Shown one piece after another: positions 9,453 to 34,589 of a DNA stretch of 41,693 bases; within the stretch, counting starts at the first letter, position 1; each line of letters opens with the position of its first letter. The stretch covers positions 1 through 41,693 of the IMG/VR virus record IMGVR_UViG_3300046171_000345; one strand, 5' to 3'. The stretch comes from a virus. Both the position numbers and the translations under genes were made by a program. The notes below the pieces were generated by a model. It saw nothing but the letters and a program-made list of their open reading frames with translations, did not search any database and was not told the origin of the DNA.

Positions 9453-9473
9453 GAATATAAGGTTTAAGGTAAA

Positions 9474-15654: not shown

Positions 15655-18600
15655 CAGTTTTGAGTATACTAGACAATTAAACAACGAAATTTATGGAACT
15701 GGAGGTTTTATTTTTACTGCCTATCCATTTGATAAGGATTTAACTTACGGACCAAATGATGTAGTTATTGGAGATGATGGGCAACTGTATATTCCAGCCA
15801 GAGTTCCTCCAACTTACACAACGAATAAACCTACAGATTTTGATTCTTACGGTGTGCCTGGAACTTTTACCTTTGATAATGGGTTTTATTATTTATGCGT
15901 AGACAATAATACATGGCTAAGAAAAGCTTTAACTGTAGTTACTAGAGTATCTTCAAATGCTGGAGATGTTTATAGCGACGATAATTTCCACTATATATGT
16001 ATGGGTGGAACTTCTTGGGGTAAATTTCCTCTCGCTGAATTTGATAGACCTAAAGAGTCTTTTCCGCAGGGGTTTCTTGGGCAAGTTTATTACGATCAAG
16101 AATATTTTAATGTTTATACCTCGCAGGGTTGGAAGAGTTCTGCTTTCGCAAATTGGGGTGGCTATTCGAGTTCAATAATTATCAATGAATATGAAAGAAC
16201 TAGACCTACTTATCCACTGTGGTTTGCTGGAGATAATTATGAGGTTGATGATGTTGTGGAGTATGATGGGCAACTGCATAAAGTCGATCAAGCTTTTGGG
16301 CCTCAAAGCACTCTTGGTGTTTTTGATTATAATGTATCATACCCTTCTGGCGTACTTATTGTCGCCCCTGAAGATGGAACTGTGCAACCTTTTGAGGTTT
16401 ACAGATCTTTTGTTCCTGGCGATAAGGTAATATATAAAAAATCGATATACGAATCGTTGACATATCAATCTGAGTCGGAAATAGTAAAACCTGATTCGGA
16501 TATTGATCAATGGAGACTTCTTTCTTTATTTAATGATATTGATTGTGCTATATTTAAATCTACTACTGAATTTCCTGTTATATATTCAAATGATTTTGAG
16601 TTTCCTACTGATGGAAATATAAACTACCAGTCTGAAATTCCTACTTCAATTATAAATGCTGGTGATGCTGGTCAATTTGCATTGAGTGAAGGTTATTTGT
16701 ATTTATGTATATATCAAAATAATTGGATTAGAGCAGCGATAACAATAGAAGAAAAAAGCGCAGGATCTGTTGGGGATAGAGATTATGATGATAATTTTTA
16801 TTACTTTTGCCTCGGTGGAACATCTTGGGGTAAGATAGCTTTAGCGGCTTCAACAAAATCTGATGCGGGTAGCGTGGGGGACATTTACTATGATTCGGAT
16901 TTCTTTTATGTTTTAACAAGTTCTGGCTGGAAGAGGTTTACAATGCAGCGGTGGGCTTTTCTTCAGGTCGCCGTGTTGGATAGTTCTCACTGGGAGAAAC
17001 AAAATCCTGAAATATCTGATAAGTTTAGCTTGTTGGTTCCGAGATTTCCTTACGAGGTTGACGATTGGTTAGCTACTGAGGATTATTTTTCTGGGCAATT
17101 GGCTGTTTACGATAATACTATTTGGAGTGGTGTTATAGATAATGGACCAAACTTTTCAGACGGATATAAAATACCTAGTAGCTCTTCTGTATATTGGTCT
17201 GCGCCAAATATATCAACAAGTTTTGCTCCTGGAGATAGGGTTTATTATGACGGACAAATATACAAATCTTTACAAAGTAATCCAACTGGCGCTCCAATAT
17301 TTCCGTCTAATTCAAAAGATTATTCTAATGAATCAACTTATCAACAATCTCAGTGGGCGCCGTTTTGGGAACTGAATCAAGCTTATGATGGCTTAGTTTT
17401 TAATCATATAGGTATACCCGAAAGCGGAAAGAGGAGTGTCGGTTTAGAGGTTGGTATAATTAATAACGAAGGAGATATACTTCAGTTAGATAGAATTACA
17501 GGATTTAATCCTGAGCCAAGTATCATTCCTCAAGGATTTCAAGCTGATAGTGTTAGTGAATCTACTAAAGTTAAATTTAATTTTAATTATTCTTTCGGAT
17601 CTCAGGAGAAGACCTCAAAAGTTCAATTGTATAGATCTGAAAATCCTAATTTTAGCATTTTAGATTCCCAAGGTCTACCTGGAACTGGGGCTTCAACATT
17701 CGTTAAGGAAGTTTTAGGGGCGGGAGATGCAACGTTTGGCCAGAATATAACTCAAATAGTTGATGAACCTCCAGTTCCGTCTATTCCTGGGTACGGCGAA
17801 CAAATTACAGGTTACTATTATAAAATACTTCCGTTTGATGATTTTGGATCTGGAGATTTATATGGAGTAACTAATAACCAAGGCGGACTTGAGAGAGTTT
17901 TGGTTTACCCAAAAAGCTTTAGCTCTCAGAATCCTAACGCTGTACCTGGAAAAGTATTTAGAACTAATCAAAATGATATTCCTGGGCCAGTTATCAATTT
18001 GACAGGAAGAACCGCTTTTGAGAATTTCTTTTTTAATTGGGAAATGCCAAATAGTAACCTCGGTATCGTTGGTAATATTCCTAATGATATTAGTCATTAC
18101 GAAGTTTGGCAGTCAGAGGATCCAACTTTATATTTCGGAGCTTTAAATAAAAGATTAAACCAACAAGACAATTCAAAGGGTTACCGAAGAATCGAAGCTG
18201 ATATTGAAAGTACTGGCCCGATACCAATAGAACAGCAAGATCCAGCGCTAGGAATATCTAATGCAACTAAAATCTTTGATATAGACGCTCTATCTCCATT
18301 AGTTTCTGCTTCTCATTTTGGGGTAACTAATGATACAAGATATTTTTGGGTCAGAGCTGTTGATCACGCTGGAAATAAAAGTCCATTTACTGGATCTGCA
18401 AATCTACAAAGTAATAATATAGAGGGATTGCAATTAATATTAGGTCAAGCTAAGACTACTGATATAGCAGATTTTGAGCAGAATATATCTAATACATTTC
18501 ATAATATTGTTTCTCTTGTTCCTAATAATCCATTTGTTGATAATGATCCTGATTCCTCTTCGATTAGATGGGATAGGCATTTTGTATATCACAAGGGAAT

Positions 18601-21600
18601 CGGTTATGTTATTGGTGGAGATTCATCTTCTGATAAGTTTATTTGGTGGCAACCTACTGGTAGCGTTGCAATAACTCCAACTCAAAGTGGTGAGTTAGGT
18701 TTAGTTGGGCCTGGTGGCGGGCCTCTAGATTCGTCTATAACAAACCCGCTAAGAAATGTATTGTATAGCGGAAATTATAATACATTAAATTATCACCCTG
18801 CAGGTGGAGATGAAAATGATCCAATATTAGACTTTAATGATGGTGATTTTATTATAGCCAGAAATAGTCAAGGCGTTGCCACTCCTGTTTGGCACTCTTT
18901 TGCTAATGCAACTATTGGTACTGCGCAAATAGAAAATGCAGCAATTGTAGACGCTAAGATAAAAACTTTAACCGCTGATAAAATAACAGCTGGAGTTATA
19001 CAAGGGCAAGATGTTCAGGTCGGAGGAACTGGTCAAATAAGAAGCGCTGGCTTTGATGGTCTAGATTTAAATAGCACAAACCCACAACAAGGCTTTGCTC
19101 TAAGTGGGGATGGTTCTTTTGTTTTTCAGACTCAAAATGGTAAATTGTATTTTGATGACGATCAATTAGTTTTAGAAGGAAAATTAAAACAATCAAATGG
19201 TGCTGAGAATACATTTATATCAATGTATGCAGAGCCAGATGTATTTATGTATGAAGAGAGGGAAGATGGGTCTTTCGTTCCTTCTTTATCGATAACTAGC
19301 CAAGAATCTAATATCATAACTTCTTTTACTAATAGTGATGTATCTGGAAGTGATGTTCGATTTAAATTGTTGACAGATGCGGGTGATGAAATTTTTGGTT
19401 ACGATGATCATGATGTAAATAATGTATACGATATTAGTGGTTTTTATTATGATCCAACTACTAATTTTGATTCTTCTACATCAACTGCAACTGCGACATT
19501 AAATATTGGTGATAGAACAGGCGTTAATGACCCAGGATTTGATCTTATTGTTCATTATGGAAGTGATGATGGTTTAAATTTTGGATCTGTAATTGTTTTT
19601 GCATCTGGAATTGGATCTACAGCTGAACACGCTGTAACCATCAGTATGCAAACCCAAGGGTCAATGGGGAAAAGCCCAGTTTATAGAGGAATTTGGAATC
19701 CTAATTCTAATTATGTTGGTTTAAATGAAAGTGACGGTACAAGCAATGCAAGTTTATTAAGAGGAGATGTTGTACATCATAATGGAACTTATTATATTGC
19801 TAAAATAAGCAATCAAGGCCAGGCTAATGAGCCGCCCAATGATACTGTTTGGGATACATTTGGCGCACAATTTGAAAGTGTTGCAACTAATTTATTATTA
19901 GCTGAAGACGCTATTATTAGTCACAAATTAACTTTAGGATCAGGAACCGATGATTCTGATAACCCTAATACAGGGGCAAATGGTATTATACATACAGTAA
20001 ATAAAGACAGCATTTCTGATATTAGTCCAGGATTTTATTTATCTAGTGATGAAGATAATTACTTTGGGGTTGGAGATGCAAGTCAATTCATAAAATTTGA
20101 CGCAAACAGTTTAAGTATAAACGCTCAAAATTTTACTTTTGGTGGGTCGAGCTCGTATTTAAAAAACGATTCAACAAAATCAAAGGTTGAAATTCAAACT
20201 GATTTATTTTATTTAGGTGATGCAGATTCATATCTTGAATTTGATACAAGTAATAGTAAGTTAACAATCAATGCATCATATTTTAAAGGAGGAGTGCAGG
20301 GAGTAACAACCCCTAGTACTAGATTTAATTTTAGCGATTATACGAATGTTGACCCACGTGCCGCTTTCATTGGTGGGGGTTATAATAATACTATACAAAT
20401 TCCTGCCACCCCTAATTTTTTATCTATTGGCTCTGCAATTGTCGCTGGAGCAGAAAATTCAGTTGAAGGTAGATTCTCTTTTATTGGCGGTGGGTACGAT
20501 AATGATTGTAAGGATAATTTTTCTGTTATAGCTGGAGGTTATAATAATGACATGCCTAAATATGATGTAAACAATGCAGGCGCTAATATAATTGGGGCAG
20601 GACAAAGTAATAAAATAGAAGGAGGAAGCAATCAAATAATAGTTGGCGGATCAAATAATTTAATAGAATATTCTCCTGGATCTATACAAATATTTAATAA
20701 AACGGCAAATGCTGTCGAAAATCCTGATACAAATATTTTCAGCAGAAGGGTATTGGGGGGAGATAAGGCCCCTGATTTATTTAATATTTACAAAAAATAT
20801 TCCGATGGAGAAAGAGTGCGAAGTGGGCCTGGTGCATTAATGGCTTACGTCTGGGAGAAAAGAGGTGGTGGCGTAATTCAGGGTCAGCCAACTCCTTCAA
20901 CATCTAATTTAGAAGCTATAAGTTCCGGAAAAATTAATAACGCTGGAAACGGATACATAGCTGACGGTAATGTAACTAGCGCCTTATCTAATGGAGATTT
21001 AGTTTTCTTTGTTGAAGAAGATGGAAATTATGATGAAGCTAATACTTCTGTATCAAGCTTTAGTTATCAATCTTCAAGTAATTCGACTATAATATTTACC
21101 ACCCCTTTTCCTAATTTAAGTGCAAATTCTGAAGGCCATATATATAAAGTTAACAACTGTTCGTGGAAAAGAGTTTCTAAAAATGGTACTAGGTATATCG
21201 ACGCTCCAAACTGGATAATTAATCCATATATATCAAGTGCAGCTTATGTTGTAAACACTACAGTTAATTCTTTCCGAGGGGATTATAATCCCTTCGTTGG
21301 TCAGTGGCTTTACTGCGTTGGAATTTTTGACGCAGGAATTCCAAATTCAGTCGCGCATAATTCGTTTATTTTTATAATTCCTACATATTCTTCTATTGAA
21401 GCGGAATCTTGGTTTTATATTAATGGTAATAGTAAAAATGCTGATTTTGCAGGCTGGAATTGGTGTAAACCATCAACTAGGGGTGCTTCAGGAATTTATA
21501 TTTTTAATCATACAAACCAGCATTGGGTGTTAATCCTAGCTGGTCAGGACGCCTATATAGTAAATAACAATCAAAAATCTCTTATATCATCAAATGGGCT

Positions 21601-21616
21601 TTCAATTTTTTCATAA
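15620..21616 (+). CDS. Giant tail fibre protein, C-terminal part
   Basis: The frame encodes 1998 residues. Two related blocks about 267 residues apart each contain NF.Y.C.GGTSWGK (near residues 115-135 and 382-405) and a following (S/T)S.GWK motif. Several aromatic GD.V.Y.G..Y modules occur near 215, 270, 545 and 1380; they resemble small carbohydrate-binding modules. Around 1096-1143 is the IGTAQIENAAIVDAKI type repeat found near the end of J-like and fibre proteins. At about 1582-1690 come YadA-head-like turns (FIGGGYNN, FIGGGYDN, IAGGYNN, IIVGGSNN) that form a beta-roll. The TTG at 15620 has no Shine-Dalgarno and overlaps the previous frame by 35 bases, so this is most likely the continuation of the preceding gene. 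Confidence 0.78.
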   Translation: MRQELPNTEVFNSFEYTRQLNNEIYGTGGFIFTAYPFDKDLTYGPNDVVIGDDGQLYIPARVPPTYTTNKPTDFDSYGVPGTFTFDNGFYYLCVDNNTWLRKALTVVTRVSSNAGDVYSDDNFHYICMGGTSWGKFPLAEFDRPKESFPQGFLGQVYYDQEYFNVYTSQGWKSSAFANWGGYSSSIIINEYERTRPTYPLWFAGDNYEVDDVVEYDGQLHKVDQAFGPQSTLGVFDYNVSYPSGVLIVAPEDGTVQPFEVYRSFVPGDKVIYKKSIYESLTYQSESEIVKPDSDIDQWRLLSLFNDIDCAIFKSTTEFPVIYSNDFEFPTDGNINYQSEIPTSIINAGDAGQFALSEGYLYLCIYQNNWIRAAITIEEKSAGSVGDRDYDDNFYYFCLGGTSWGKIALAASTKSDAGSVGDIYYDSDFFYVLTSSGWKRFTMQRWAFLQVAVLDSSHWEKQNPEISDKFSLLVPRFPYEVDDWLATEDYFSGQLAVYDNTIWSGVIDNGPNFSDGYKIPSSSSVYWSAPNISTSFAPGDRVYYDGQIYKSLQSNPTGAPIFPSNSKDYSNESTYQQSQWAPFWELNQAYDGLVFNHIGIPESGKRSVGLEVGIINNEGDILQLDRITGFNPEPSIIPQGFQADSVSESTKVKFNFNYSFGSQEKTSKVQLYRSENPNFSILDSQGLPGTGASTFVKEVLGAGDATFGQNITQIVDEPPVPSIPGYGEQITGYYYKILPFDDFGSGDLYGVTNNQGGLERVLVYPKSFSSQNPNAVPGKVFRTNQNDIPGPVINLTGRTAFENFFFNWEMPNSNLGIVGNIPNDISHYEVWQSEDPTLYFGALNKRLNQQDNSKGYRRIEADIESTGPIPIEQQDPALGISNATKIFDIDALSPLVSASHFGVTNDTRYFWVRAVDHAGNKSPFTGSANLQSNNIEGLQLILGQAKTTDIADFEQNISNTFHNIVSLVPNNPFVDNDPDSSSIRWDRHFVYHKGIGYVIGGDSSSDKFIWWQPTGSVAITPTQSGELGLVGPGGGPLDSSITNPLRNVLYSGNYNTLNYHPAGGDENDPILDFNDGDFIIARNSQGVATPVWHSFANATIGTAQIENAAIVDAKIKTLTADKITAGVIQGQDVQVGGTGQIRSAGFDGLDLNSTNPQQGFALSGDGSFVFQTQNGKLYFDDDQLVLEGKLKQSNGAENTFISMYAEPDVFMYEEREDGSFVPSLSITSQESNIITSFTNSDVSGSDVRFKLLTDAGDEIFGYDDHDVNNVYDISGFYYDPTTNFDSSTSTATATLNIGDRTGVNDPGFDLIVHYGSDDGLNFGSVIVFASGIGSTAEHAVTISMQTQGSMGKSPVYRGIWNPNSNYVGLNESDGTSNASLLRGDVVHHNGTYYIAKISNQGQANEPPNDTVWDTFGAQFESVATNLLLAEDAIISHKLTLGSGTDDSDNPNTGANGIIHTVNKDSISDISPGFYLSSDEDNYFGVGDASQFIKFDANSLSINAQNFTFGGSSSYLKNDSTKSKVEIQTDLFYLGDADSYLEFDTSNSKLTINASYFKGGVQGVTTPSTRFNFSDYTNVDPRAAFIGGGYNNTIQIPATPNFLSIGSAIVAGAENSVEGRFSFIGGGYDNDCKDNFSVIAGGYNNDMPKYDVNNAGANIIGAGQSNKIEGGSNQIIVGGSNNLIEYSPGSIQIFNKTANAVENPDTNIFSRRVLGGDKAPDLFNIYKKYSDGERVRSGPGALMAYVWEKRGGGVIQGQPTPSTSNLEAISSGKINNAGNGYIADGNVTSALSNGDLVFFVEEDGNYDEANTSVSSFSYQSSSNSTIIFTTPFPNLSANSEGHIYKVNNCSWKRVSKNGTRYIDAPNWIINPYISSAAYVVNTTVNSFRGDYNPFVGQWLYCVGIFDAGIPNSVAHNSFIFIIPTYSSIEAESWFYINGNSKNADFAGWNWCKPSTRGASGIYIFNHTNQHWVLILAGQDAYIVNNNQKSLISSNGLSIFS

Positions 21617-21622
21617 TTTAAA

Positions 21623-22321
21623 ATGTCAATAACACCTCCATTAACAACTGGAAATTTTTTCGCCGACCCTAGAAGGAATCCAGATTTTTTACCTCCTAGC
21701 GATAATACTTTACATGGAGGTGGGTATGATGCAGGTAATAGCATTATGGCAGGAATTAATAACAGGATTATGGACTCACGGAGATGTTCTATAATTCAAG
21801 GAGCGTCCAACATAATAAATGCGAAATACAATACTCACGTTATTGGGGATTTTGTTGAAGCTTCTGAGGATAATTGTTTTTATGTTGGATGTATTAATGG
21901 CATGCAGGTCAAGGGGCAGGTTAACGCTCCATCTATTTATTCCCAAGGAAATATATTTGCAGAAGGTGATATTATCGCAGAGGGTGATATTACCGCAGCA
22001 AATCTTTCTGATAAAAGACTAAAAGATGATATTTCCTTAATAGATAACCCTTTATCTAAAATAATGTCTCTAGATGCAATCGAATTTAATTGGAACGATA
22101 AGCAATCGACTCATCAAGGTCACGATATCGGATTAATAGCCCAGCAAGTTGAAAAAATTGCTCCAGAAATAGTGCAGGAAAGGAAAGATGGGTATAAAGC
22201 TCTTAAATACGAAAAGGTTATTCCTTTGCTAGTCGGCGCAATTAAAGAACAGCAAGAAAAAATACAAATACTAAATGACCGCGTAGAATATCTATTAAAA
22301 AAAATAGACTCTATGAGTTGA
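21623..22321 (+). CDS. Short fibre protein with peptidase S74 intramolecular chaperone
   Basis: Residues 1-100 contain YadA-head-like turns similar to those near the end of the giant fibre (GGGYDAGNSIMAGINN, SIIQGASNII). Residues 127-232 are a peptidase S74 (endosialidase-type) chaperone: LSDKRLKDDI at 128-137 with Ser129, Asp130 and Lys134, then FNWNDKQSTHQGHDIGLIAQQVEKIAPEIV, written here as two parts FNWNDK and GLIAQQVEKIAPEIV. It ends in a coiled coil. Such domains help fibres trimerise and then cut themselves off at the Ser. The protein is short and separate from the giant fibre, six bases downstream. Its 3' end overlaps the convergent minus-strand gene by 11 bases. Confidence 0.88.
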   Translation: MSITPPLTTGNFFADPRRNPDFLPPSDNTLHGGGYDAGNSIMAGINNRIMDSRRCSIIQGASNIINAKYNTHVIGDFVEASEDNCFYVGCINGMQVKGQVNAPSIYSQGNIFAEGDIIAEGDITAANLSDKRLKDDISLIDNPLSKIMSLDAIEFNWNDKQSTHQGHDIGLIAQQVEKIAPEIVQERKDGYKALKYEKVIPLLVGAIKEQQEKIQILNDRVEYLLKKIDSMS

Positions 22322-26756: not shown

Positions 26757-26797
26757 AACAGATACTATAACCAAACTCTATTTTGTCAATTTTTTAT
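26757..26797 (-). promoter_or_regulatory. Promoter of the PC4-like gene, apparently leaderless
   Basis: On the minus strand, TTGACA (26789-26784) is followed after 16 bases by TAGTAT (26767-26762). Only five bases (CTGTT) then remain before the ATG at 26756, so the transcript should start at or next to the start codon. There is no Shine-Dalgarno sequence. Confidence 0.6.
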
Positions 26798-27667
26798 TTA
26801 TAATTCTTTTATATTGTGACACCAACGTTCTTCTGATCTTAATGCATCATACTTTCTGTAACTAGAAGTCCAGATTCTGTTTGGTAAACTATTTATTCTT
26901 ATGATATCAAAATGCTTTTGCATTAACTCAACAGATTTTGTATAGTCGAATTGATCGCGGCTATTTTTTATTGGGTCAAAATATGTTTCAAGCGCCGCTT
27001 TACAAATGATTTGTTCTGGGGAAAGTTTTGTCGGTATAGATGATAGTTCGGTTGATTTTTCGAAAACCTTTATCATTCGACTTGTTTGTCCTCCTACAAA
27101 GTGATCAGAGGGATGAAATTTAATTTCATTATCAAATCTAAAATATATATTAGAAGTTACAAGTTTAAACCAATTATAAATTCCTTTTTCGTTTTTACTA
27201 TCTCTATTCTCTTTTATCTTTTTTAGTATAGGATTTATTACAGGATAAGATTCATCTGATCTAAATTTTACTGAGAGAAAGTTTTTCGCTGCTTTGAGCC
27301 CTTCTAATGTAGAGTAGTTTTGAAAAATATAAGGGTTCTTTGCTCCAGACCTTACAGATAGTTTTGAGGCTTTTTTGAAATCGTTGATTACTAATGTAAT
27401 TTTATCTTTGTATTTTTCTATTAAATTTAAATTATCATTATCCCAGCAAGACACAATTACTTCGCCGTATTCTAAATATTGAGGTATTGTATTTATTGAT
27501 CTTAAATGAAGTGGGCCTTGTATAATTATTGATACTTGATCCTCTGACTTTTCAAACCTTTTTAATAAGTTTTTTTGCAGAGTGATCGCAAAATTAGTAA
27601 AGCTTGGAACGTAATTTAATTCTTTACCTGATTGATCTTTTAGTTTATGAGGGTTCCATCGATTCAT
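26798..27667 (-). CDS. WavE-like lipopolysaccharide/glycan glycosyltransferase
   Basis: The 289-residue protein fits the WavE family (named for a Vibrio cholerae LPS core gene). The conserved opening SIIIQGPL is at 46-53, a Cys-Trp strand (VSCWDND) is near 72-78, FRSDE lies at 135-139, and SDHFVGG at 187-193. These are the family's usual substrate-site stretches. It probably transfers a sugar to a glycan. Its start overlaps the GDPD-like gene by four bases and its end is followed by a 41-base gap holding the next gene's promoter. An alternative label would be a generic capsular polysaccharide transferase. WavE enzymes have been little studied, so the acceptor is unknown. Confidence 0.8.
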   Translation of the reverse strand: MNRWNPHKLKDQSGKELNYVPSFTNFAITLQKNLLKRFEKSEDQVSIIIQGPLHLRSINTIPQYLEYGEVIVSCWDNDNLNLIEKYKDKITLVINDFKKASKLSVRSGAKNPYIFQNYSTLEGLKAAKNFLSVKFRSDESYPVINPILKKIKENRDSKNEKGIYNWFKLVTSNIYFRFDNEIKFHPSDHFVGGQTSRMIKVFEKSTELSSIPTKLSPEQIICKAALETYFDPIKNSRDQFDYTKSVELMQKHFDIIRINSLPNRIWTSSYRKYDALRSEERWCHNIKEL

Positions 27668-28086
27668 ACTAAGAAGTCAGAGCATAAGCCAAAGCAGGGC
27701 GGCCCTGAGTAATTTCTAGCGTCATCTACAACTAGGACACTTTTATTGCTAACTCTTTTGCCAGGGTAAGTCCAGACGAAGTTTCTGGAGGTTAAAGTAA
27801 AGTCGTCTGTTTCATGCCAAAAATAGTTTAGTAATGTAAATTCACTAAGTATATCTAACGCTTCTAGGTTTTTGCAATGAATCCATAAATGCTTGAAGTT
27901 TTTTATTAAAAATTTCATAGGGCACGGACTCTCTGGTTTATCGTGCCCCAACCAGAGCTGGTTTCTAGCCCAGACATCTATTTCTACATCAAACCCTTTA
28001 TCGAGAGCTTCCTGTATGTAATCTATAGTGTTCTCTCTTTCTGGCTTAGGGCCATTAATATTTCCTCTATGGGAGACGAATATCAT
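27664..28086 (-). CDS. Glycerophosphodiesterase-like protein (short GDPD)
   Basis: The 140-residue protein has the recognisable GDPD pattern: SHRGN at 5-9, ENT at 18-20, the metal-binding pair Glu35/Asp37 in VEIDV, and GHD at 47-49. It is about half the length of normal GDPDs (around 250 residues), so the barrel is truncated, and the second half (WIHCKNLEALDIL, NYFWHETDDF, GLCSDFL) is a conserved closing region of this short type. In sugar loci such proteins may process phosphodiester-linked substituents. The position next to a sugar nucleotidyltransferase supports a role in a glycan, not in lipid breakdown. It overlaps both neighbours. Confidence 0.75.
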   Translation of the reverse strand: MIFVSHRGNINGPKPERENTIDYIQEALDKGFDVEIDVWARNQLWLGHDKPESPCPMKFLIKNFKHLWIHCKNLEALDILSEFTLLNYFWHETDDFTLTSRNFVWTYPGKRVSNKSVLVVDDARNYSGPPCFGLCSDFLV

Positions 28087-29443
28087 GTTTTAAAAAAGTA
28101 TCTAGATCTTCAGGGGTTCCAAGTCCCCACATCTTATCTATATTAAAAGTTTTTACTCTTGCCCCGATTAATAAAGCTTCGTTATAAACTGGGCATACAT
28201 AGAATTCATTATTGACTCTTATATTTTTCTCGACCATAGATTCTGCACATGAAACATAATCACTTCCTTTTTTCCAGAAATAAATTCCAACTGTAGCGTT
28301 ATCACTAATAGGTTTCTTTTCCGCAACTTCCGTAACAAACCCCTCTTCGTTTAATTTTGCATAACTCCATTTTGGGTGGGTCGAGCGAAATGTTAAGATT
28401 GAGCCGTCTATATCGTCCGCCATGCAGGAATACATAAATTGATTACTCTCCCATTCGACATACTGATCTGAGTTTGCTAGAATTAATGGTTCGTCATTAT
28501 TTATAAATTCTTTAGCGAGTAATGTGGTGCATGCAGCGCCCTCCGTCATGCCCTCCACTTGAACTATTTCGCAATTCGGAGATATCAAATTTAAAGTATG
28601 TTGTAGGGAGTATTTTTCGTAGTGAGATTTTTGAACAATAAATATGTGTCTTGCGTCGATGTTTAGATTCTCTACAACTCTCTGTATCATGGGTTTACCA
28701 TTGACATCTATTAAGGGTTTAGGGAAGGTATATCCCGCCTGTTCAAATCTGGAGCCAGCTCCAGCCATGGGTATTAATACGTTCATTTTGCCTCCTTGCC
28801 ATTTTGGTGAAATTTGCGATTTTTTATCTGCATTAAGTATAGTACTATTAATTTTATCAAATGTCAAGTCATTAGAATCCTTGACTGCGCATAAATGTGC
28901 GCCACTTCTTATTGCACCCTTTCTTCCTATGTGAGAATCTTCAATGATTACTGTCTCGTCAGGGTTGACTCCGACTTTTATCATGCATCTCATGTATATC
29001 TCGGCGTTGGGTTTCGGGTTGTTTACGTCTTCATTTGAATATAAAAAATCTATATAATCAAAAAAACCTTTTCTTATTAGCATTAATTTTGAAGTCTCTC
29101 TTATAGAGTTTGTTGCGCATGCAATTTTGTAGTTTTTCGATTTTAATTTTTTAAAAATATCTATTATTCTGTAGTCGCGCTGATAGTTATCTATTTCTTG
29201 TAATGTTTTTTGCTGCTTAAGTTTCCAGATTCTGTTGTGATATTTTTCTGGAAGATTTTTTTCGGAGCTTAACTTTTTTAATTTTTGAGTTGTTGTTAAT
29301 GCATCGTATTTACAAAGATGTTCTTCTTTACTAATTGTATATTGATCACCTATTTCAGATAGAGCTTTATTGAGTGCGATGTAATGTAATTCGCGAGAGT
29401 CAACTAACACTCCATCTAGATCAAATATAATTAATTTAATCAT
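28067..29443 (-). CDS. Bifunctional HAD phosphatase - sugar-phosphate nucleotidyltransferase
   Basis: Residues 1-205 are an HAD-superfamily phosphatase or phosphomutase with all four motifs: FDLDGVLVDS (7-16; Asp8 and Asp10), CATNS (109-113), the Lys of NPKPN (Lys144) and IIEDS (167-171). Residues 220-458 are a nucleotidyltransferase with GAGSRF (228-233) and KPLIDVNGKPMI (242-253), the nucleotide-binding start of sugar-1-phosphate NTP transferases. The pair could dephosphorylate a sugar phosphate and then activate a sugar. The joint at residue 220 has a strong internal Shine-Dalgarno and ATG, so the second domain may also be made alone. It overlaps its neighbours by a few bases. The sugar is not known. 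Confidence 0.88.
   Translation of the reverse strand: MIKLIIFDLDGVLVDSRELHYIALNKALSEIGDQYTISKEEHLCKYDALTTTQKLKKLSSEKNLPEKYHNRIWKLKQQKTLQEIDNYQRDYRIIDIFKKLKSKNYKIACATNSIRETSKLMLIRKGFFDYIDFLYSNEDVNNPKPNAEIYMRCMIKVGVNPDETVIIEDSHIGRKGAIRSGAHLCAVKDSNDLTFDKINSTILNADKKSQISPKWQGGKMNVLIPMAGAGSRFEQAGYTFPKPLIDVNGKPMIQRVVENLNIDARHIFIVQKSHYEKYSLQHTLNLISPNCEIVQVEGMTEGAACTTLLAKEFINNDEPLILANSDQYVEWESNQFMYSCMADDIDGSILTFRSTHPKWSYAKLNEEGFVTEVAEKKPISDNATVGIYFWKKGSDYVSCAESMVEKNIRVNNEFYVCPVYNEALLIGARVKTFNIDKMWGLGTPEDLDTFLKHDIRLP
28786..28797 (-). promoter_or_regulatory. Internal Shine-Dalgarno and ATG at the HAD/nucleotidyltransferase joint
   Basis: AAGGAGG (minus strand, 28797-28791) is followed by CAAA and then the in-frame ATG whose first base is 28786. 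This ATG is Met220, the first residue of the nucleotidyltransferase domain (MNVLIPMAGAG). The site is one of the clearest ribosome-binding sites in the window and sits exactly where the domain begins. Confidence 0.75.
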
Positions 29444-30137
29444 CTATATAAGTTAAGTATTTTTTCCAATCATCATGTATTCTTATATCATGCTTGCCTT
29501 GGTGGTCCATAAATAAATGACTTTCTATTTTATTATAAAGAGCCCAATATAGAAGTACGCTATTAAAGCCTATGAATTTTTTACTTTGACTGATAACTTC
29601 AAGCGTTTCCTTGAGTGAAGATTTGCCACTAAAGCTTTTACCGAATGAGGGTTTGGTTTCTTCTATGCCGACCCAGCAAACTTTGCTTTCGTTAAAATTA
29701 ATTTTTTTTAAATATTCCAGTATCGGCCTTTTGTTTATGTGCCTTTTTTTTCCTTCGTTTTTGACTCCGCCATTTACTTGTATGCATAAATCGTATTTTT
29801 TCTCAACCGCATTGTTTGTGTGTGGATTTTTGAGGCCTTCATCGATACAAGGTTGCCAGTGAAAATCTCTAGGTGGGCATTTTATGCGGCCATGAGCGCA
29901 CACATTAAAGCATTTATCAAATTTATAATGATTAGTCTGCCACCAGTGTCTCAAGTTGGGGGTGTGTATTAATTGATGGTTTATATTAAATATATTTAAT
30001 AGTTCGCCGCACATTAATAGCTTTTCTTTGGTTGATTCTATGTGGGTATACAGTTGGTTGCGCTCTCCTTCAAGTAGTTTGAGTATGATTATCAGGCAGT
30101 CGCCAACTCCGCCATAACCTAGCGACTCTCGCGTCAT
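29436..30137 (-). CDS. GT9-like glycosyltransferase (small)
   Basis: This protein of 233 residues opens with LGYGGVGDCLIIILKL (6-21), a glycine-rich N-terminal loop like that of GT9 or GT-B enzymes (GG.GD). It ends with KKFIGFNSVLLYWALYN (186-202), the place where GT9 enzymes hold the sugar nucleotide, here with Phe-Asn in place of the usual Asp-Ser. It is shorter than typical GT9 enzymes (about 320-350 residues). A block of Cys and His (VCAHGRIKCPP, about 79-90) lies between the halves and could bind a metal. The ATG overlaps the FkbM gene's stop by four bases. The identification is moderate; it could be another small GT-B protein. Confidence 0.65.
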   Translation of the reverse strand: MTRESLGYGGVGDCLIIILKLLEGERNQLYTHIESTKEKLLMCGELLNIFNINHQLIHTPNLRHWWQTNHYKFDKCFNVCAHGRIKCPPRDFHWQPCIDEGLKNPHTNNAVEKKYDLCIQVNGGVKNEGKKRHINKRPILEYLKKINFNESKVCWVGIEETKPSFGKSFSGKSSLKETLEVISQSKKFIGFNSVLLYWALYNKIESHLFMDHQGKHDIRIHDDWKKYLTYIDD

Positions 30138-30754
30138 AAGATCAGGCTTACATTACCCCACGTACCTGATGATTTATAGCCTATTTTGCAGAAGGAGTCT
30201 ATAACGCTAAGACAGTCTTCTTTGTCGCTCAGTGGGTTGATTTCGAAAATAATTTTTTTAGCAGGTTTAGTATTTTTTTTATCTAGCGCTGATAAGTATG
30301 ATTTTAGTATTGTTGCGTCGTGGCCTTCTGCGTCTATTTTTATTAAATCGCAAGAATCTATCTTCTGCTCTTCGATTAACGATTCGAAGGAAAGTATTTT
30401 AATATCAGATTCGCTTATAAATCCATTGTGTAAATTAAATTTATCAACTAATTTAAGTTGTGCGGGATGAGCTTTGTCTATGGAGTTGCATCCTTGTATG
30501 TATGCGTACATTTTGAAATTTAAACCCCTATCTTTGCAGAAATTTTTAATGGTGTCTTTTTTTATATGAAAGACTTTCCCTGATCTGTCTTGATTGCTTA
30601 TTGCATAGTTTAATTTTTTAACATTGGGTTTGTCTGGTAGGTCATTTAGATATTCTTTTACCGGGTCAATTGACAGGCCCTTAGATTCGTTTGAGCACTG
30701 CTGTATGATAGTCTCAAAGTTAGATGTTCCTATTTCTATAAAATTGTATTCCAT
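30134..30754 (-). CDS. FkbM-family methyltransferase
   Basis: The protein has the motif order of FkbM-type SAM-dependent methyltransferases: EIGTSNFET at 7-15 (SAM-binding motif I), SIDPV at 28-32, and the signature IKIDAEGHD at 138-146 (usually KIDVEGAE), followed by a closing strand (KKIIFEINP). It is 206 residues, the common length. FkbM enzymes O-methylate sugars or polyketides; here the neighbours are glycosyltransferases, so methylation of a glycan is likely. The short spacer upstream (19 bases) holds a TAAACT hexamer seven bases before the ATG, a possible weak promoter. The 3' end overlaps the GT9-like gene by ATGA. Confidence 0.83.
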   Translation of the reverse strand: MEYNFIEIGTSNFETIIQQCSNESKGLSIDPVKEYLNDLPDKPNVKKLNYAISNQDRSGKVFHIKKDTIKNFCKDRGLNFKMYAYIQGCNSIDKAHPAQLKLVDKFNLHNGFISESDIKILSFESLIEEQKIDSCDLIKIDAEGHDATILKSYLSALDKKNTKPAKKIIFEINPLSDKEDCLSVIDSFCKIGYKSSGTWGNVSLIL

Positions 30755-30773
30755 TTATTTTAGTTTAATTGCG

Positions 30774-31454
30774 TTAAATACCTGTCCAGTTATTTTTTAA
30801 ATAAACATAGTCTTCCTCTTCTGGGAATAGTTCCACATATTCTTTTGTTTTGCCTTTCGGTATGTTCTTTGGGTTTGGTTCTATATGCATTAATATTTTT
30901 TTTTCATATTTGAGGATTTCTGGAACTAAATGCTCGGTTAAGAAATATTCATCTGCGCCAAATTCAGATAAGGGGTCTTTATATTTATTCATTAAGTCTG
31001 CAATTTTAAAAGGTAGATTTCTACCGCCAAAGCAACCTGCCATATAGTACCTTCTATTTTTCCTATTCCAAGCTGAAAGCCTATCATGAGCGAGCCATAC
31101 AAAATGTAATAAATAATCCGTATTTAACCATTCGTTGATGGATGTAATATCATTCTGCTGTATCTGAAAATCTAAATCCCTACATACCGCTACGTCACAA
31201 TCATCTAACGCTAGAAATCTCCAAAAGCAACCTTCTCTACCTTCTCCTTTGGGCATTTTTATGCATTCGGTATTATTAATCGACTCAACAGATTTAATTA
31301 TATTTAATGGAGCTGTATCATCAAAATACAATCTAAAATTCCAATCGGGCATATTCTCTGATACAAATTTAGCATTCCTTGGTGCCCCTAGTGCATATTT
31401 GTGGTACGCTGCTGGCCTACTACCAAATAAAGAAGTTGATATTACTTTTTTCAT
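30774..31454 (-). CDS. GT-A-like glycosyltransferase with RDLDF motif
   Basis: The protein has 226 residues. Its middle has EGCFWRFLALDDCDVAVCRDLDF (74-96, given as EGCFWRFLAL and RDLDF), where the Asp-Leu-Asp pair fits a metal-binding DXD-like motif of GT-A sugar transferases. Similar proteins occur in many aquatic phage glycan loci, but the family lacks a settled name. A second block (YYMAGCFGGRNLPFK, about 146-160) looks like an acceptor loop. The gene overlaps the methyltransferase gene upstream by four bases. The sugar donor is not known. I am fairly sure it is a transferase and less sure of its class. Confidence 0.65.
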   Translation of the reverse strand: MKKVISTSLFGSRPAAYHKYALGAPRNAKFVSENMPDWNFRLYFDDTAPLNIIKSVESINNTECIKMPKGEGREGCFWRFLALDDCDVAVCRDLDFQIQQNDITSINEWLNTDYLLHFVWLAHDRLSAWNRKNRRYYMAGCFGGRNLPFKIADLMNKYKDPLSEFGADEYFLTEHLVPEILKYEKKILMHIEPNPKNIPKGKTKEYVELFPEEEDYVYLKNNWTGI

Positions 31455-31987
31455 TTTTTTTGTAAAGCTGCTAAATGTTGACCAGATGAAATCTCGTCTA
31501 TTAAATTATATTTTTCTAAAACAGATCTATAATGCTTTCTGCATGGATGCCAATCATGCATAAAGATAATGCAGTCCTTATCTACGAAGTCGTACATATA
31601 TCTAGCGCACTGAGGCCTAGCTCTTCCGTCTATTAATATTTTTGTGAATTTTTTATTAATTTTCGAACCTGTTTCTATGTATTCTTTGTAGGCTTTGTAT
31701 ATTTTAGTTGTATAGAGTTGGTTCCATTTTACTGCATGTTTTTGATTTGGGTCTTCTGGTCTTACGACTGGAACTGTATGCATTGTGACATTTTTTGGCA
31801 TAATTTCTTTAACTGAATTAGCCCACTTAGGGTCTGATTCGATACTGTAGTATTCTTTTACATATTTAGGAAAAAACATGGTACTACCTCCACAACCATA
31901 TTCGAGCATTATATCATCTTTTTTTAAAAAACTTAATACGAGATTGATCTCCTCTTGAGACATCCATGGTTGATTTGGTACGTTCAT
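31451..31987 (-). CDS. Class I SAM-dependent methyltransferase
   Basis: The 178-residue protein shows SAM-binding motif I at 29-36 (EYGCGGST), the acidic strand at 47-53 (YYSIESDP), a strand with the catalytic-side Asp at about 115-120 (TKILIDGRARP), and a closing FMHDWHPCR (143-151). The pattern is like small methyltransferases of polysaccharide loci. Being the second such enzyme in the cassette, it may modify a different sugar position than FkbM. It overlaps both neighbours by four bases, so translation is probably coupled. An alternative is a DUF-type protein that binds SAM without methylating. Confidence 0.75.
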   Translation of the reverse strand: MNVPNQPWMSQEEINLVLSFLKKDDIMLEYGCGGSTMFFPKYVKEYYSIESDPKWANSVKEIMPKNVTMHTVPVVRPEDPNQKHAVKWNQLYTTKIYKAYKEYIETGSKINKKFTKILIDGRARPQCARYMYDFVDKDCIIFMHDWHPCRKHYRSVLEKYNLIDEISSGQHLAALQKK

Positions 31988-32886
31988 TTTAAATACTTAT
32001 TTTCGGCATGAGTTTTAATTTCATTAAAGACATCTTCACTCCAAGTGAAATCATCTTGATATGAACCGTAAACATCTTGATCACACCAACCAGCTTCCCT
32101 AAAATTATTAGGTCTGCTATGTTCTCCTATTTCTCCTATATATTCAAAATTGTTTGTAAATGTTGAGACTTTAATCATACCTCTTGAGACTAAAGCTGAT
32201 GAAGTGCAGGAATCTTGACTTGATACAATTTTATTTGGATCTACTCCAAATTGAGACATATATTCAAGTATTTTTAAATGAGGGCGAGCTCTATATTCCT
32301 GAGGTAATAAAGCCCAGAAACCCTCCATGATATCTAAGATTTTTTCATAAGAGCTTCTTCTCATTGCGTAAGCCCACATGTGATCCATTAAAATTAATTT
32401 ATCTTTATTTTCTTGTTGTTCTTTTAATGTAGTTTTTGAATCTAAATCATCTATGTAATTGATGTATGAATATCTATGACTTCTTTTTGATCTATGATGT
32501 TCGCCGAAACAATTTATCATAGCTACCCTTTCGTCATCTTTGAATAATTCGATAAGTCTATCTATTTGTTGTATGTAGTGGGGCTGTAATACGGAGTCGT
32601 CTTCAATCAATATTAAGAATTCGTTTTCTTTAAAAACCATTTCTCTTGATAGTTTCATTATTCCCGCTACTCCAAGGTTCATCTTTGGAACAAAGTTTTT
32701 AGAGTGAGGTATGATTTCCTTAGATAAATCAATACATTTTTGAACGGCAGGAATCTCTTGTTGGAATCTTGGCGCATCAATAAAGCAATAAACTTCTCTA
32801 TCCCAACATTGTGGAGATAGGGATTCTAAAACTTTCTTAAAATAATCAGGCCTGTTATATGCCGTTAGTACTACTGGAGTCTTCAT
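31984..32886 (-). CDS. GT-A glycosyltransferase (GNT-I/GT13-like)
   Basis: The 300-residue protein starts with VVLTAYNRPDYFKKVLESL (5-23), the typical opening of GT-A sugar transferases. It has LILIEDDSVLQP (91-102), where Glu-Asp-Asp is the metal and nucleotide-sugar binding motif in GNT-I-like enzymes (also seen in POMGNT1). A His-rich loop follows (GEHHRSKRSHRY, about 128-139). An unusual late block carries FREAGWCDQDVYG. It probably adds GlcNAc or a similar sugar to a glycan or protein. A short gap upstream contains a -10-like hexamer. It overlaps the methyltransferase gene by four bases. Confidence 0.8.
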   Translation of the reverse strand: MKTPVVLTAYNRPDYFKKVLESLSPQCWDREVYCFIDAPRFQQEIPAVQKCIDLSKEIIPHSKNFVPKMNLGVAGIMKLSREMVFKENEFLILIEDDSVLQPHYIQQIDRLIELFKDDERVAMINCFGEHHRSKRSHRYSYINYIDDLDSKTTLKEQQENKDKLILMDHMWAYAMRRSSYEKILDIMEGFWALLPQEYRARPHLKILEYMSQFGVDPNKIVSSQDSCTSSALVSRGMIKVSTFTNNFEYIGEIGEHSRPNNFREAGWCDQDVYGSYQDDFTWSEDVFNEIKTHAENKYLK

Positions 32887-32913
32887 ATAACGATACTAAA
32901 GAAAACTTAAATT
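32887..32913 (-). promoter_or_regulatory. Candidate leaderless promoter before the GT-A gene
   Basis: On the minus strand TAGTAT (32898-32893) lies six bases (CGTTAT) before the ATG at 32886. It is close in sequence to the box at 26767-26762 (TAGTATC then GTTA in both). The -35 position has TTAGAT, a weak match. No Shine-Dalgarno is present. Confidence 0.45.
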
Positions 32914-33642
32914 TTATCTAATTAATTTTGTTTTTATATTTCCGAAATTATTTAATCCTGTTAGTTTTTTGTATTTACAGTTTTTTGATTTTAAGCATAT
33001 TGTTAATACAGATTCTGGCACCTTGATCATATATTCTGGATAACCTTCGTTCCATAAGAAATTTACAGCCTGCTCGACTTCGTTTAGGCAGCTCATGTAT
33101 TTTTGCATATACTCGATACTTCCAACCGCAATTTGGTCATTAACTTGCTTTGGTAGTGCTGCTTGGTCATTGACGAAACTAAATGCAAATTGTTTTTTTA
33201 ATTCTTCTTCATGATTGTATATATTATTACTCTCGAAATAAGGCAATCTAATATGATTATTGTCAATACAGTCTTGTAATTCGTATTTTTTAATTGGTTC
33301 CAAAACTTGGATGTCTGGTCTGAGTCTAATGACCAAATCATATATTTTTTTCTTTTTTGGTAATAATTTATAAACTGATTTCATATTAAATAGCATGGGA
33401 ATTAATCCTGCGCTAGGTTGATATGGTAGATCATCTTTATTTATTGAATAATTATATGCATCGCTTGGCCAAGTAATAAATTTTTTTACTTTGTAATATT
33501 CATTAAATTGTATATAATCTTCATCGTTCCATGTTGATAAATATATATCTGGTTTGAGTGGATTTATTATGTTTTGTAGTATAGAATCGGTACATGATTT
33601 CCAATTACCGAGCTTACCACTGAAACAAAGTGCTACTTTCAT
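32914..33642 (-). CDS. Glycosyltransferase-like protein (ALCFSG type)
   Basis: The 242-residue protein opens with MKVALCFSGKLGNW (1-14) and has YDLVIRLRPDI at 101-111, a pattern seen in a family of phage and bacterial sugar transferases of capsule and LPS loci. The Asp of RPDI is in the place of the donor-binding Asp. The sequence after 160 (FSFVNDQAALP, DQIAVGSIEYMQKYM) matches that family's acceptor side: the transferase presents a check for a DQ/GS pair. It overlaps the GT9-like gene by four bases and is followed by a 27-base gap with a promoter-like box. The donor and acceptor are not known. Confidence 0.68.
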   Translation of the reverse strand: MKVALCFSGKLGNWKSCTDSILQNIINPLKPDIYLSTWNDEDYIQFNEYYKVKKFITWPSDAYNYSINKDDLPYQPSAGLIPMLFNMKSVYKLLPKKKKIYDLVIRLRPDIQVLEPIKKYELQDCIDNNHIRLPYFESNNIYNHEEELKKQFAFSFVNDQAALPKQVNDQIAVGSIEYMQKYMSCLNEVEQAVNFLWNEGYPEYMIKVPESVLTICLKSKNCKYKKLTGLNNFGNIKTKLIR

Positions 33643-34589
33643 TCAGTTATATATTCAGTAATATCTCTCTGCCCTATTAGCTTCTCTATGTTGTCAAGAA
33701 GAAATGGATAAAGTTTATAGGCGGGGTTTCTTAATGTATTTTTTACGATTTGCCCTGCGGTTTTAACATCGTGGTGCATTGGAAGAATGAATTTATCATC
33801 AAATAACCATCTTATTAAATATGAATATTGTACTTTACCGTATTGTTTGCAATACTTAGAGAATGTAAATGTTGGTTTTGAATAGTGGTATGGTATATAT
33901 CTTATTCCAGAATCCACACCAAGCGCAGCAACACACTTACTTGATAAATAAAATATCTCTCGAAGTGATGCATGTATGAAGTGTACTTTTTCTAAATTTT
34001 TTGCAATTAATTTTTCGTATTTATGTTTTGATTGTTCATCATATAAAATAATAATATCAAATTCTTGTGATATATTCTCTATTAGTTTTTCGATATACCA
34101 ATCTTCCATGTTTGAATCTGCATTGTCTCTTGCATATAAATGAGCCAAGATAAATTTATCAGGTGTTTTTATATTAAGATCTGCGCGATTTTCTGGAGTT
34201 GGAAAGGTTTTAAAATACTTTAGCCAATCATAATCATGGTTGAGCCAGCCAAGAGAGTCAATATGCAGATCGTAAAATAAATCATATTCTGATGTCATTT
34301 TTTTATAAATTTCATCGGGTACGTTTTTTATTGAACTTGGATAATCCTCATTCGGGAAGTTTGCGCATTTAATTTTTAAATTTTTATACTTTTTTTCTTC
34401 AATTATAAATGTATTATCGAAGTGGGATGGCCACATTTCATTCAAGATAGATGATTGAAGTTTATTTCCTTCTGTATCCGAGTATAAATCTATAGAGCAA
34501 GAAGGGTATTTCTCTTTTATTGCAGGTATAAAACGATTAGCCGCGAAATGATCTCCTAACCCTCCTTCGATTCTTACCGAAATTCTCAT
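33639..34589 (-). CDS. GT9-like (heptosyltransferase-type) glycosyltransferase
   Basis: Residues 8-15 (EGGLGDHF) carry the Gly-rich N-terminal loop of GT9 enzymes, and residues 224-228 (GVDSG) are the donor-binding Asp-Ser-Gly of that family; the total of 316 residues is normal. GT9 enzymes transfer heptose or similar sugars in LPS core. The start is supported by a good Shine-Dalgarno (GAGGGGAG, spacing about five to six bases before the ATG at 34589), which lies in the end of the winged-helix gene. This is the first sugar enzyme of the minus-strand operon. Confidence 0.8.
   Translation of the reverse strand: MRISVRIEGGLGDHFAANRFIPAIKEKYPSCSIDLYSDTEGNKLQSSILNEMWPSHFDNTFIIEEKKYKNLKIKCANFPNEDYPSSIKNVPDEIYKKMTSEYDLFYDLHIDSLGWLNHDYDWLKYFKTFPTPENRADLNIKTPDKFILAHLYARDNADSNMEDWYIEKLIENISQEFDIIILYDEQSKHKYEKLIAKNLEKVHFIHASLREIFYLSSKCVAALGVDSGIRYIPYHYSKPTFTFSKYCKQYGKVQYSYLIRWLFDDKFILPMHHDVKTAGQIVKNTLRNPAYKLYPFLLDNIEKLIGQRDITEYITE

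Follow-up and report, generated by a model that had tools for sequence, protein, structure and literature searches.

In a 41,693-nucleotide stretch of viral DNA (IMG/VR record IMGVR_UViG_3300046171_000345, positions 1 to 41,693; hereafter the window), ten genes (A-J) form one tight minus-strand block at 26798-34589, in which, by comparison with related contigs, exchangeable cargo lies between the conserved frame genes A-B and H-I-J. The ten genes are real: all ORFs called in an earlier sequence-only reading were confirmed at the same positions, and neighbors overlapped by 4-20 bases at 7/9 junctions. The main claim of that reading, a phage-encoded cassette for glycan synthesis and decoration, was well supported, but the cassette is not one fixed pathway, because C-G are exchangeable between the conserved frame genes. 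From the gene sequences, the block is tentatively interpreted, with about evenly balanced confidence, as a locus whose soluble enzymes assemble a glycan in the cytoplasm, the core being fixed and the decoration switchable, and whose most likely target is the fibers of the phage itself.

The lineage of the window phage is uncultured and consists of large tailed phages; a related contig measured 184 kb. Megablast of 22300-35000 against phage records returned no match, and the terminase-like protein of a relative (G011) showed 22-26% identity to phage records among the 20 matches listed of 74. Relatives were found in syntenic contigs for 9/10 cassette genes (the exception being F), and a search for the same gene order in other phage genomes, as the earlier reading had proposed, recovered the A-B/H-I-J frame with variable cargo. 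ORFs were called by a script that dropped any ORF overlapping a longer one by >60 b or 25%, so some genes were missed; the clustering of genes from 24 genomes includes one 75-aa minus-strand ORF.

Frame genes (all minus strand) were assigned by profile and structure searches. A (33639-34589), adjoining the cargo, is a weakly assigned GT9-like transferase (TIGR02193, heptosyltransferase I model, E 0.002, far under cut-off) and was present in 21/30 genomes spanning B to H. B (32914-33642), the left cargo border, matched phrog_13607 (E 5.5e-12), and its AlphaFold2 model (pLDDT 81.5) has a GT-A glycosyltransferase fold, with Foldseek matches to LARGE1 (E 1.6e-7, TM 0.5-0.57, ~12% identity), XXYLT1 and BoGT6a (E 1.6e-7 to 2e-6 over the three); PDB profile searches with A and B gave nothing significant. 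H (28067-29443), the right cargo border, is a fusion of HAD phosphatase-like and sugar nucleotidyltransferase domains (PF13419, HAD_2, E 1.5e-29; PF00483, NTP_transferase, E 1e-10), with 4evw (E 2.3e-17) and beta-phosphoglucomutase (E 1.8e-14) as solved relatives and motif residues invariant across 15 aligned sequences. I (27664-28086) is a compact GDPD-like phosphodiesterase, assigned from invariant columns and a PDB profile match to the solved GDPD 7e0v (E 4e-4, over residues 2-53 only); no Pfam family, GDPD included, was matched at E up to 1. Its 19 invariant columns in 18 aligned sequences include H6-R7, E18-N19, E35-D37 and H48, which we take to fit the GDPD catalytic pattern (HR, EN, ExD, HD); conserved columns extend to residue 137, and judged by the alignment I does not clearly appear truncated. 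J (26798-27667) belongs to the WavE family (PF07507, 45.5 bits, cut-off 27).

The cargo interval of the window phage (29436-32886, minus strand), defined by block replacement between sisters, contains C-G. C (31984-32886) is a GT2-like transferase by weak matches under cut-off (PF13641, E 2.3e-4; PF00535, E 2.9e-4), and F (30134-30754) is an FkbM methyltransferase (PF05050, 39.4 bits, cut-off 22.7) with no cluster partner among the 24 clustered genomes or the 30 genomes spanning B to H. D (31451-31987) is a possible methyltransferase, found in 5 of the clustered genomes, window included; E (30774-31454) is a possible GT-A transferase, 91% identical in L007 and L008, and G (29436-30137) is a small GT9-like protein, 86-87% identical in the same two. 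Structure prediction and HMM searches, the checks suggested for the earlier labels, upheld those of B, F, H, I and J, left A and C weakly matched, and found no relevant family for D, E and G, which stand as motif readings (methyltransferase, GT-A and GT9-like).

The cassette had also been thought to continue at 23113-26198 with a GT4 and a split GT9. This extension was not borne out, because these genes lie in a K-L-M-N block (22311-26774, minus strand) that also occurs without H, I and J: none of the three was annotated in 27/63 loci despite sequence upstream of K, and 4 further loci lacked them where the contig ends. Neighbored by probable DNA-metabolism genes, the GT4 and split GT9 form a block of their own. 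K (26199-26774) is possibly ssDNA-binding (Whirly-like), from a PF08536 match of the distant K of L258 (E 5e-4, under cut-off); the window's K had no family match in the profile scan. The GT4 in L (24288-26198; PF00534, 27.6 bits, cut-off 26.4; phrog_2170 glycosyltransferase, E 1.6e-19) and the C-half of GT9 in M (23113-24300; PF01075, 27.3 bits, cut-off 22, profile positions 104-224 of 247), which also carries an unknown domain, were confirmed by profile, and the GT9 N-half at the end of L was read by eye; for the GT9 family only this C-half was above cut-off, A having its weak TIGR02193 match and G none. N (22311-23150) is a possible Rad52-like annealing protein (AF2 pLDDT 66; best Foldseek matches human RAD52, E 6.5e-3, none at 0.001), and PDB profile searches with K and N gave nothing significant. 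A programmed frameshift joining L and M was rejected, because the M start (ATGCAC) lay inside the end of L in 28/28 sequences, a gene stood between L and M in 6/63 loci (DUF6165 in the one scanned), and no conserved slippery heptamer was seen.

Across the 30 genomes taken as spanning B to H there were 15 cargo sets and 33 cargo families, with 0-7 genes each; contigs cut inside the interval (e.g. L003, L026, L044, L046, and also L210-L213, L222, L223 and L225) were left out of these counts, and B of L004, L012, L015, L037 and L073, present by tblastn, is absent from the 30-genome cargo table. The families include transferases, methyltransferases, a sulfotransferase, a pyruvyl transferase and a CMP-sugar synthetase, and 22/29 cargo representatives (1/29 being a small gene between H and I) matched sugar-transfer, methyl-, sulfo-, pyruvyl-, cytidylyl-transferase or aldolase Pfam families at E <= 0.01, some of them under cut-off. 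Cargo genes were co-oriented and tightly packed, and copies up to 80-96% identical occurred in different backbones. Cargo sharing dropped with divergence (Spearman 0.51); cargo identity was at least 10 points above that of the backbone gene L in 14/82 pairs, and below it as often (14/82). Placement of H group 2 (6 rows) as a single clade in the L tree was rejected (p-AU 6e-6).

Sisters with 93-99.6% identical flanks carried different cargo, replaced up to the start codon of H, and identity returned at, or within 6 bases of, that codon. The calling of replaced segments was confined to pairs whose L genes were at least 85% identical and differed by no more than 60 b in length. The two cleanest pairs also showed replacement of an inner stretch of the long tail fiber, with the fiber tip and intervening genes kept. 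Between G006 and G010, compared over up to 50.6 kb, three blocks were 96.8, 98.2 and 99.6% identical across a 49-kb span, the replaced parts being the cargo (18433-20946) and p10 residues ~1565-2047; between G001 and G022 (flanks 92.6 and 96.9% identical) they were the cargo (8030-10897), p10 residues 1849-2454 and a repeat region in q7/q8. The Ser/Thr fraction was 0.20-0.235 in the replaced fiber stretch vs. 0.16-0.17 in the remainder. Clean co-replacement was seen in two sister groups, comparisons with G002 being messier. In three same-cargo comparisons the fiber tip/p11 changed and the inner fiber did not; sisters differed as well in the tape-measure gene and in a repeat region, and the no-cargo phages L217 and L243 differed along most of the fiber.

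In the window the cassette is followed by the K-N block and then by the fiber-region genes p11 (21623-22321, plus strand; S74 chaperone domain protein after the fiber, PF13884, 55.2 bits, cut-off 22) and p10 (15620-21616, plus strand; long tail-fiber-like protein, phrog_17312 tail protein, E 1.8e-10, with a weak CBM_5_12 match under cut-off). By gene order, phage glycosyltransferases lie near virion genes, as looked for in virion glycosylation. The co-replaced stretch was seen in p10 homologues of sisters. A stable cargo-fiber pairing across the lineage was not found: shared cargo did not predict fiber likeness in 138 diverged pairs (25 genomes, both partners with cargo, last 2300 residues of p10, three truncated). 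Mean residues in fiber matches of at least 60% identity were 32 where at least two cargo genes were shared (26 pairs, with 828 of the underlying residues coming from one pair), 0 where one was shared (25 pairs) and 17 where none was (87 pairs); L007 and L008 had all five cargo genes in common and fibers only 41% identical at most. The suggestion that the fibers are the target gains some support from the replaced stretch in sisters, but the lack of a lasting cargo-fiber pairing counts against it.

No TM-like stretch was found in the 15 cassette-region proteins or the 135 cargo-interval proteins; one ORF in a further sugar region of G011 passed the TM threshold, which is crude. We infer the enzyme substrates, the glycan, its acceptor and its use as follows. 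Because all enzymes look soluble, the glycan would be assembled sugar by sugar in the cytoplasm. The conserved A, B, H, I and J would make and start a common sugar unit: H would trim a sugar phosphate and couple the sugar-1-phosphate to a nucleotide, I would cleave a phosphodiester, and B and J, probably with A, would transfer sugars. The cargo enclosed by B and H would contribute strain-specific residues as well as methyl, sulfate, pyruvate or sialic-type decorations; it is replaced as a block, probably via recombination in the flanking genes. The most likely acceptor would be a virion protein, above all the neighboring long tail fiber, modified before lysis. Since the middle of the cassette is exchanged wholesale between close phages, phages may swap surface sugars, like a bacterial serotype switch; a full phage serotype switch, with an O-antigen-like locus of fixed core and swappable decoration exchanged together with the sugar-bearing fiber stretch, is judged rather unlikely.

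As the main alternative, the enzymes may act on cytoplasmic precursors of the host's LPS core or capsule and alter the receptor of the infected cell, with progeny avoiding debris, other phages excluded, and cargo and fiber both changing with host type; this is possible but doubtful. It would suit the WavE family membership of J and the occurrence of H-I in bacterial chromosomes (e.g. SAR11), with a WavE-family-neighbor homologue in 11/52 loci; bacterial H-I-J-like sets presumably act on the cell surface. Cytoplasmic core transferases require no flippase, and fiber and cargo vary between sisters, where tip and receptor changes need not coincide. However, in the two clean pairs the cargo changed, yet the tip and p11, which we take to be the likeliest receptor binders, lay within blocks of 96.9-98.2% identity, and the tip changed in the three same-cargo comparisons. 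GtrA-type and lipid-carrier genes, which would also count towards host-surface action, were not found in 22 contigs, most of them fragments: the initiating sugar-phosphate transferase PF02397 (control 9/14), the Wzx flippase PF01943 (control 13/14) and GtrA PF04138 (control 7/14) were each found in 0/22. Neither a lipid-carrier polysaccharide pathway nor a Gtr pathway was thus seen in these contigs.

Glycosylated DNA is known in phages (PMC12619734), and L and M sit between weakly Whirly-like and weakly Rad52-like genes and, by eye, beside replication genes in distant phages, so the transferases might hypermodify DNA bases against restriction. For the cassette this is not favored and is thought highly improbable, as thymidylate-synthase-type PF00303 (control 9/14) and C5-methyltransferase PF00145 (control 10/14) were found in 0/21 contigs (one of 184 kb, one of 205 kb), and sulfotransferase, pyruvyl transferase and CMP-sugar genes better match surface glycans; TET/JBP PF12851 was also found in 0/21 contigs, with a control that gave no signal. 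Finally, the cargo interval might be a recombination-prone spot gathering passenger sugar genes without a coherent product, with fiber and cargo as independent hot spots. The failure of cargo sharing to track fibers in diverged pairs and the differing tape-measure and repeat regions of sisters are in line with this, but it is held to be improbable given that cargo is co-oriented, tightly packed and recurrent in different backbones, and that the motif residues of H and I are invariant in aligned sequences.

Outside the lineage, the H-I pair was also found in viral contigs of up to ~300 kb and in abundant marine bacteria, SAR11 among them. Of the loci retrieved with H, 80 of 175 viral ones and 80 of 99 from the genome collection were retained; after removal of the loci of the lineage itself, of L119 and of L169-L198 (partial or distant), I lay in the fetched flank of H in 45/53 phage loci and in 41/49 genome-collection loci, of which some contigs may be viral (L120 looks viral by eye). 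A mere hint of a host comes from L119, a 3.4-kb contig that has the lineage gene order and was assigned to a Flavobacteriaceae MAG, possibly through a binning error.

Phage gtr seroconversion cassettes alter surface glycans with a GtrA flippase and membrane-bound transferases. The present genes would likewise alter surface glycans, but a GtrA flippase and membrane-bound transferases were not found here. The earlier reading held that the cassette exceeds the usual one to three transferases of phages; it does, but cyanophage records with comparable runs exist. The full H fusion (59% identity) occurs in cyanophages S-8S55, B23 and DSL-LC03, in one gene run with I and transferases, and S-SM2 has I but just the NTase half of H (32%); these clusters are in Kyanoviridae, with no annotated fiber gene alongside in the stretches read. 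The cultured cyanophage S-CAM9 likewise has H and I. In mycobacteriophages, virion glycosylation has reportedly been described by Freeman et al. in 2023, with sugars on capsid and tail-tube proteins. Phage-encoded transferases are common to that system, as cited in PMC12619734, and to the present one; its capsid and tail-tube sugars are a proposed analogue, the suspected acceptor here being the fiber, and it differs from the present locus, known from its genes, in that ten genes with sugar activation and decoration-block exchange occur here. N-glycans on a chlorovirus capsid protein are established, and PMC7826918 describes virus-encoded cytoplasmic glycosylation with a conserved core and additional sugars varying between viruses, as proposed here. 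In Megavirinae, eukaryotic viruses, glycan clusters of 6 to 33 genes accompany bacterial-like sugars measured on fibrils (PMC10117803). As in such giant-virus clusters, nucleotide-sugar and transferase genes lie together here, with content varying between relatives; their content is clade-specific, whereas here near-identical phages differ, not only clades, and the evidence is from genes. A literature search that covered few subscription papers returned no description of a phage glycan-cassette exchange locus.

Variation in phages is generally expected at the receptor-binding tip; here a sugar-making cassette is a further fast-changing locus. If its sugars are on the virion, phage surface glycans would count as a variable trait with possible effects on adsorption, decay, grazing and recognition, and H-I would become a concrete enzyme pair for assignment. 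If the cassette acts on the host, it would be a receptor-remodelling system that is unusually elaborate and exchanged rapidly.

The ten ORFs (A-J) claimed by the sequence-only reading at 26798-34589 were present, all on the minus strand, and neighbouring ORFs overlapped at 7 of 9 junctions. Clear family matches upheld the labels of F (FkbM methyltransferase), H (HAD_2 and NTP_transferase) and J (WavE). B matched no Pfam family; its AlphaFold2 model (pLDDT 81.5) resembled GT-A glycosyltransferases (LARGE1, E = 1.6e-7; XXYLT1; BoGT6a), and the GDPD-like label of I was borne out by a profile match to a solved GDPD (E = 4e-4), with what we take to be the GDPD catalytic residue pattern preserved. 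Likeness was weak for C (GT2) and A (heptosyltransferase), and the labels of D, E and G found no backing, no relevant family being recovered for them in family profile searches. Divergent from the cassette, at 35374-36900, were genes for a deoxynucleotide monophosphate kinase, a protein weakly like sigma-70 region 2 and an SSB.

In 27 loci found by searching with H, the gene order was q genes, O, A, B, variable genes, H, I, J, K, L, M, N and fibre genes, several contigs being cut inside that order and some lacking A; an extra small gene lay between H and I in at least 4 of them. The variable genes, or cargo, correspond to C-G in the window. Across 30 genomes taken as spanning the interval (the window and 29 others), cargo comprised 15 distinct sets and 33 families besides A and B, with 0 to 7 genes per genome; 12 of the 30 had none, nine of these making up one clade. 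Of 29 scanned cargo representatives, 22 matched a family of sugar-transfer or sugar-modification type with E ≤ 0.01, though not always above the curated cut-off; the 29 included the small H-I gene, itself without any match. The families were Gly_transf_sug, galactosyltransferase, GT2, GT7, GT25, exostosin GT47, RXYLT1_C and CST-I sialyltransferase, together with sulfotransferase, polysaccharide pyruvyl transferase, CMP-sugar transferase (CTP_transf_3), HpcH aldolase and several methyltransferase families.

Some cargo genes were 80-96% identical between phages whose L proteins (GT4) were 69-79% identical; where L identity fell short of 80% (82 cargo pairs), cargo exceeded L by at least 10 points in 14 pairs and trailed it by as much in another 14. 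Sequence comparison indicates that H itself has moved between genomes. Keeping six genomes with 'group 2' H together in the L tree was rejected (p-AU = 6e-6), and tracking of L (Spearman) was 0.41 for H, 0.46 for B and 0.95 for M.

The sister phages G006 and G010 aligned in blocks of 96.8, 98.2 and 99.6% identity across a 49-kb span, and up to 50.6 kb the replaced sequence was the cargo, from the C stop codon to the H start codon, and 1.4 kb (residues about 1565-2047 of 2763) inside the gene for p10, a long tail-fibre-like protein (15620..21616, plus strand, in the window). Another replaced segment fell within the gene that occupies the tape-measure position, whose window homologue matched tape-measure PHROGs. 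G001 and G022, from a different clade (flanks 92.6 and 96.9% identical), differed in cargo (B end to H start codon), p10 residues 1849-2454 and the q7/q8 repeat region. At the right cargo border, one pair regained identity exactly at the H start codon, the other no more than 6 bases away from it. The replaced p10 stretch had, by eye, the appearance of tandem Ig/Fn3-type repeats, with a Ser/Thr fraction of 0.20-0.235 vs. 0.16-0.17 in the rest. Cargo and p10 also differed, less tidily, between G002 and both G006 and G010. For pairs with the same cargo (L203/L250, L203/L204 and G021/G001, the G021 cargo being cut at the contig start), the p10 tip and p11, an S74 chaperone-domain protein (21623..22321, plus strand), differed and the inner fibre did not; tip and p11 were replaced there as a further, cargo-independent unit. 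From these comparisons, cargo accompanies the inner fibre stretch, not the tip, in close pairs.

For 138 more diverged pairs, both members with cargo, fibre likeness was not predicted by shared cargo. Mean residues in fibre matches of ≥60% identity were 32 for the 26 pairs sharing two or more cargo genes (all from a single pair, 828), 0 for the 25 sharing one and 17 for the 87 sharing none. L007 and L008 had all five cargo genes in common and not the fibre, and L217 and L243, both without cargo, differed along most of the fibre. As the diverged pairs and L217/L243 show no cargo-fibre link, co-replacement may reflect no more than two fast-changing loci, fibre and cargo. Glycan clusters of phages and giant viruses are already known; our literature search found no phage glycan locus swapped as a block between near-identical genomes.

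Outside the lineage, I was present in the fetched flank of H at 45 of 53 phage loci (among the matches listed), always on the same strand and within 100 bases in 13 of the 45. I had a relative in 16 Synechococcus phage records, and at least 80% of H was covered in 11 phage records. In the genome collection, 41 of 49 loci (among the matches listed) had I close to H; the two shared a strand in 39 and were no more than 100 bases apart in 37. Of the 49 loci, 30 were titled Pelagibacteraceae or Pelagibacter. By eye, the pair lay near gyrB and lepA/pheT in SAR11 genomes (L131-L168), sometimes with a WavE-like gene; in L135 it lay between them, with a WavE-family neighbour whose homologues occurred in 11 of 52 loci. 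Sterolibacterium held a GDPD-HAD-NTase-cupin-NTase-WavE-like gene run (by eye). Being found in phage and bacterial loci, H-I, sometimes joined by a WavE-type gene, is by its distribution a portable module of bacteria and viruses. A 3.4-kb contig with the lineage's O-B-H-I-J order (L119) was binned in a Flavobacteriaceae MAG, a weak host hint.

The cassette had also been read as continuing at 23113-26198 with a GT4 and a split GT9. That extension was not sustained: these genes, L and M, belong to a separate minus-strand block, K-L-M-N (22311-26774), whose order was also kept in 27 loci, several of them near-duplicates, where the contig extends upstream of K and no H, I or J was annotated, and they should not be counted as part of the cassette. 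L had no match among 50,697 phage records and occurred at 63 distinct loci in IMG/VR, where K preceded it in 61 (the contig ended in the other two), M followed it in 57, with a small gene inserted between the two in 6 others, and N was called directly after M in 57. In distant phages the neighbours of the block were, by eye, DNA polymerase III-like and exonuclease-like; K of one such phage was weakly Whirly-like, and N is weakly Rad52-like. The block (also at loci L199-L261) is a possible DNA- or replication-linked glycosyltransferase. The GT9 split looks real; L and M have 13 bases in common in the window (24288-24300) and 10-13 in relatives. A frameshift is not favoured, given the small gene between the halves in 6 of 63 loci (L227, L228, L233, L237, L248 and L249; DUF6165 in the one scanned).

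The window is a single virus record of 41,693 bases, and its plus-strand tail genes were of siphovirus type (PF05939 and PF05100 minor tail proteins, GpJ-like tip). The aromatic carbohydrate-binding-like modules suggested for this region agree with CBM_5_12 matches in p9 and p10 (14095-21616), which were weak and below cut-off. q9 (39815-41692) matched the tail-sheath-labelled phrog_15433 (E = 1.5e-26), odd beside such tail genes, and in relatives it adjoins a further stretch of genes that look transferase-like by eye. The related contig G011 (184,324 bases) is probably near complete, judging by a gene whose start recurs at both ends (by eye). Three further sugar regions lie on this contig; of 10 of their proteins scanned, 7 had Pfam matches at E ≤ 0.01 (two GDP_Man_Dehyd, RmlD-like, GT2 with GT25, GT34, a DXD-type transferase and DUF2827). 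The terminase-like protein of G011 matched 74 phage records, and its identity to the 20 of these that were listed was 22-26%. At 79.2-81.3 kb of G011 (L105-L106), succinate dehydrogenase cytochrome b-like, NAD(P)H dehydrogenase-like and adenylylsulfate kinase-like genes were seen by eye.

By a simple hydropathy test, TM-like stretches were found in 0 of 15 cassette-region and 0 of 135 cargo-interval proteins (A and B included); the test is crude, since it flagged 14 of 112 longer G011 ORFs, some of them unlikely to encode membrane proteins and one lying in a further sugar region. Searches of 22 contigs recovered no initiating transferase, Wzx or GtrA family, their controls being positive. As TM-like stretches and these families were both absent, the machinery is probably soluble, and sugars would be built in the cytoplasm, either onto a protein of the phage or onto a lipid-linked precursor of the host. 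Modification of phage DNA by the cassette is unlikely, because thymidylate-synthase-type and C5-methyltransferase genes were not found in 21 contigs. We tentatively prefer the phage fibre as the glycan target, at somewhat under an even chance, over alteration of the host surface, the main rival and a less probable one, because the fibre genes are close to the cassette and its cargo accompanies the inner fibre, not the tip, in close pairs.
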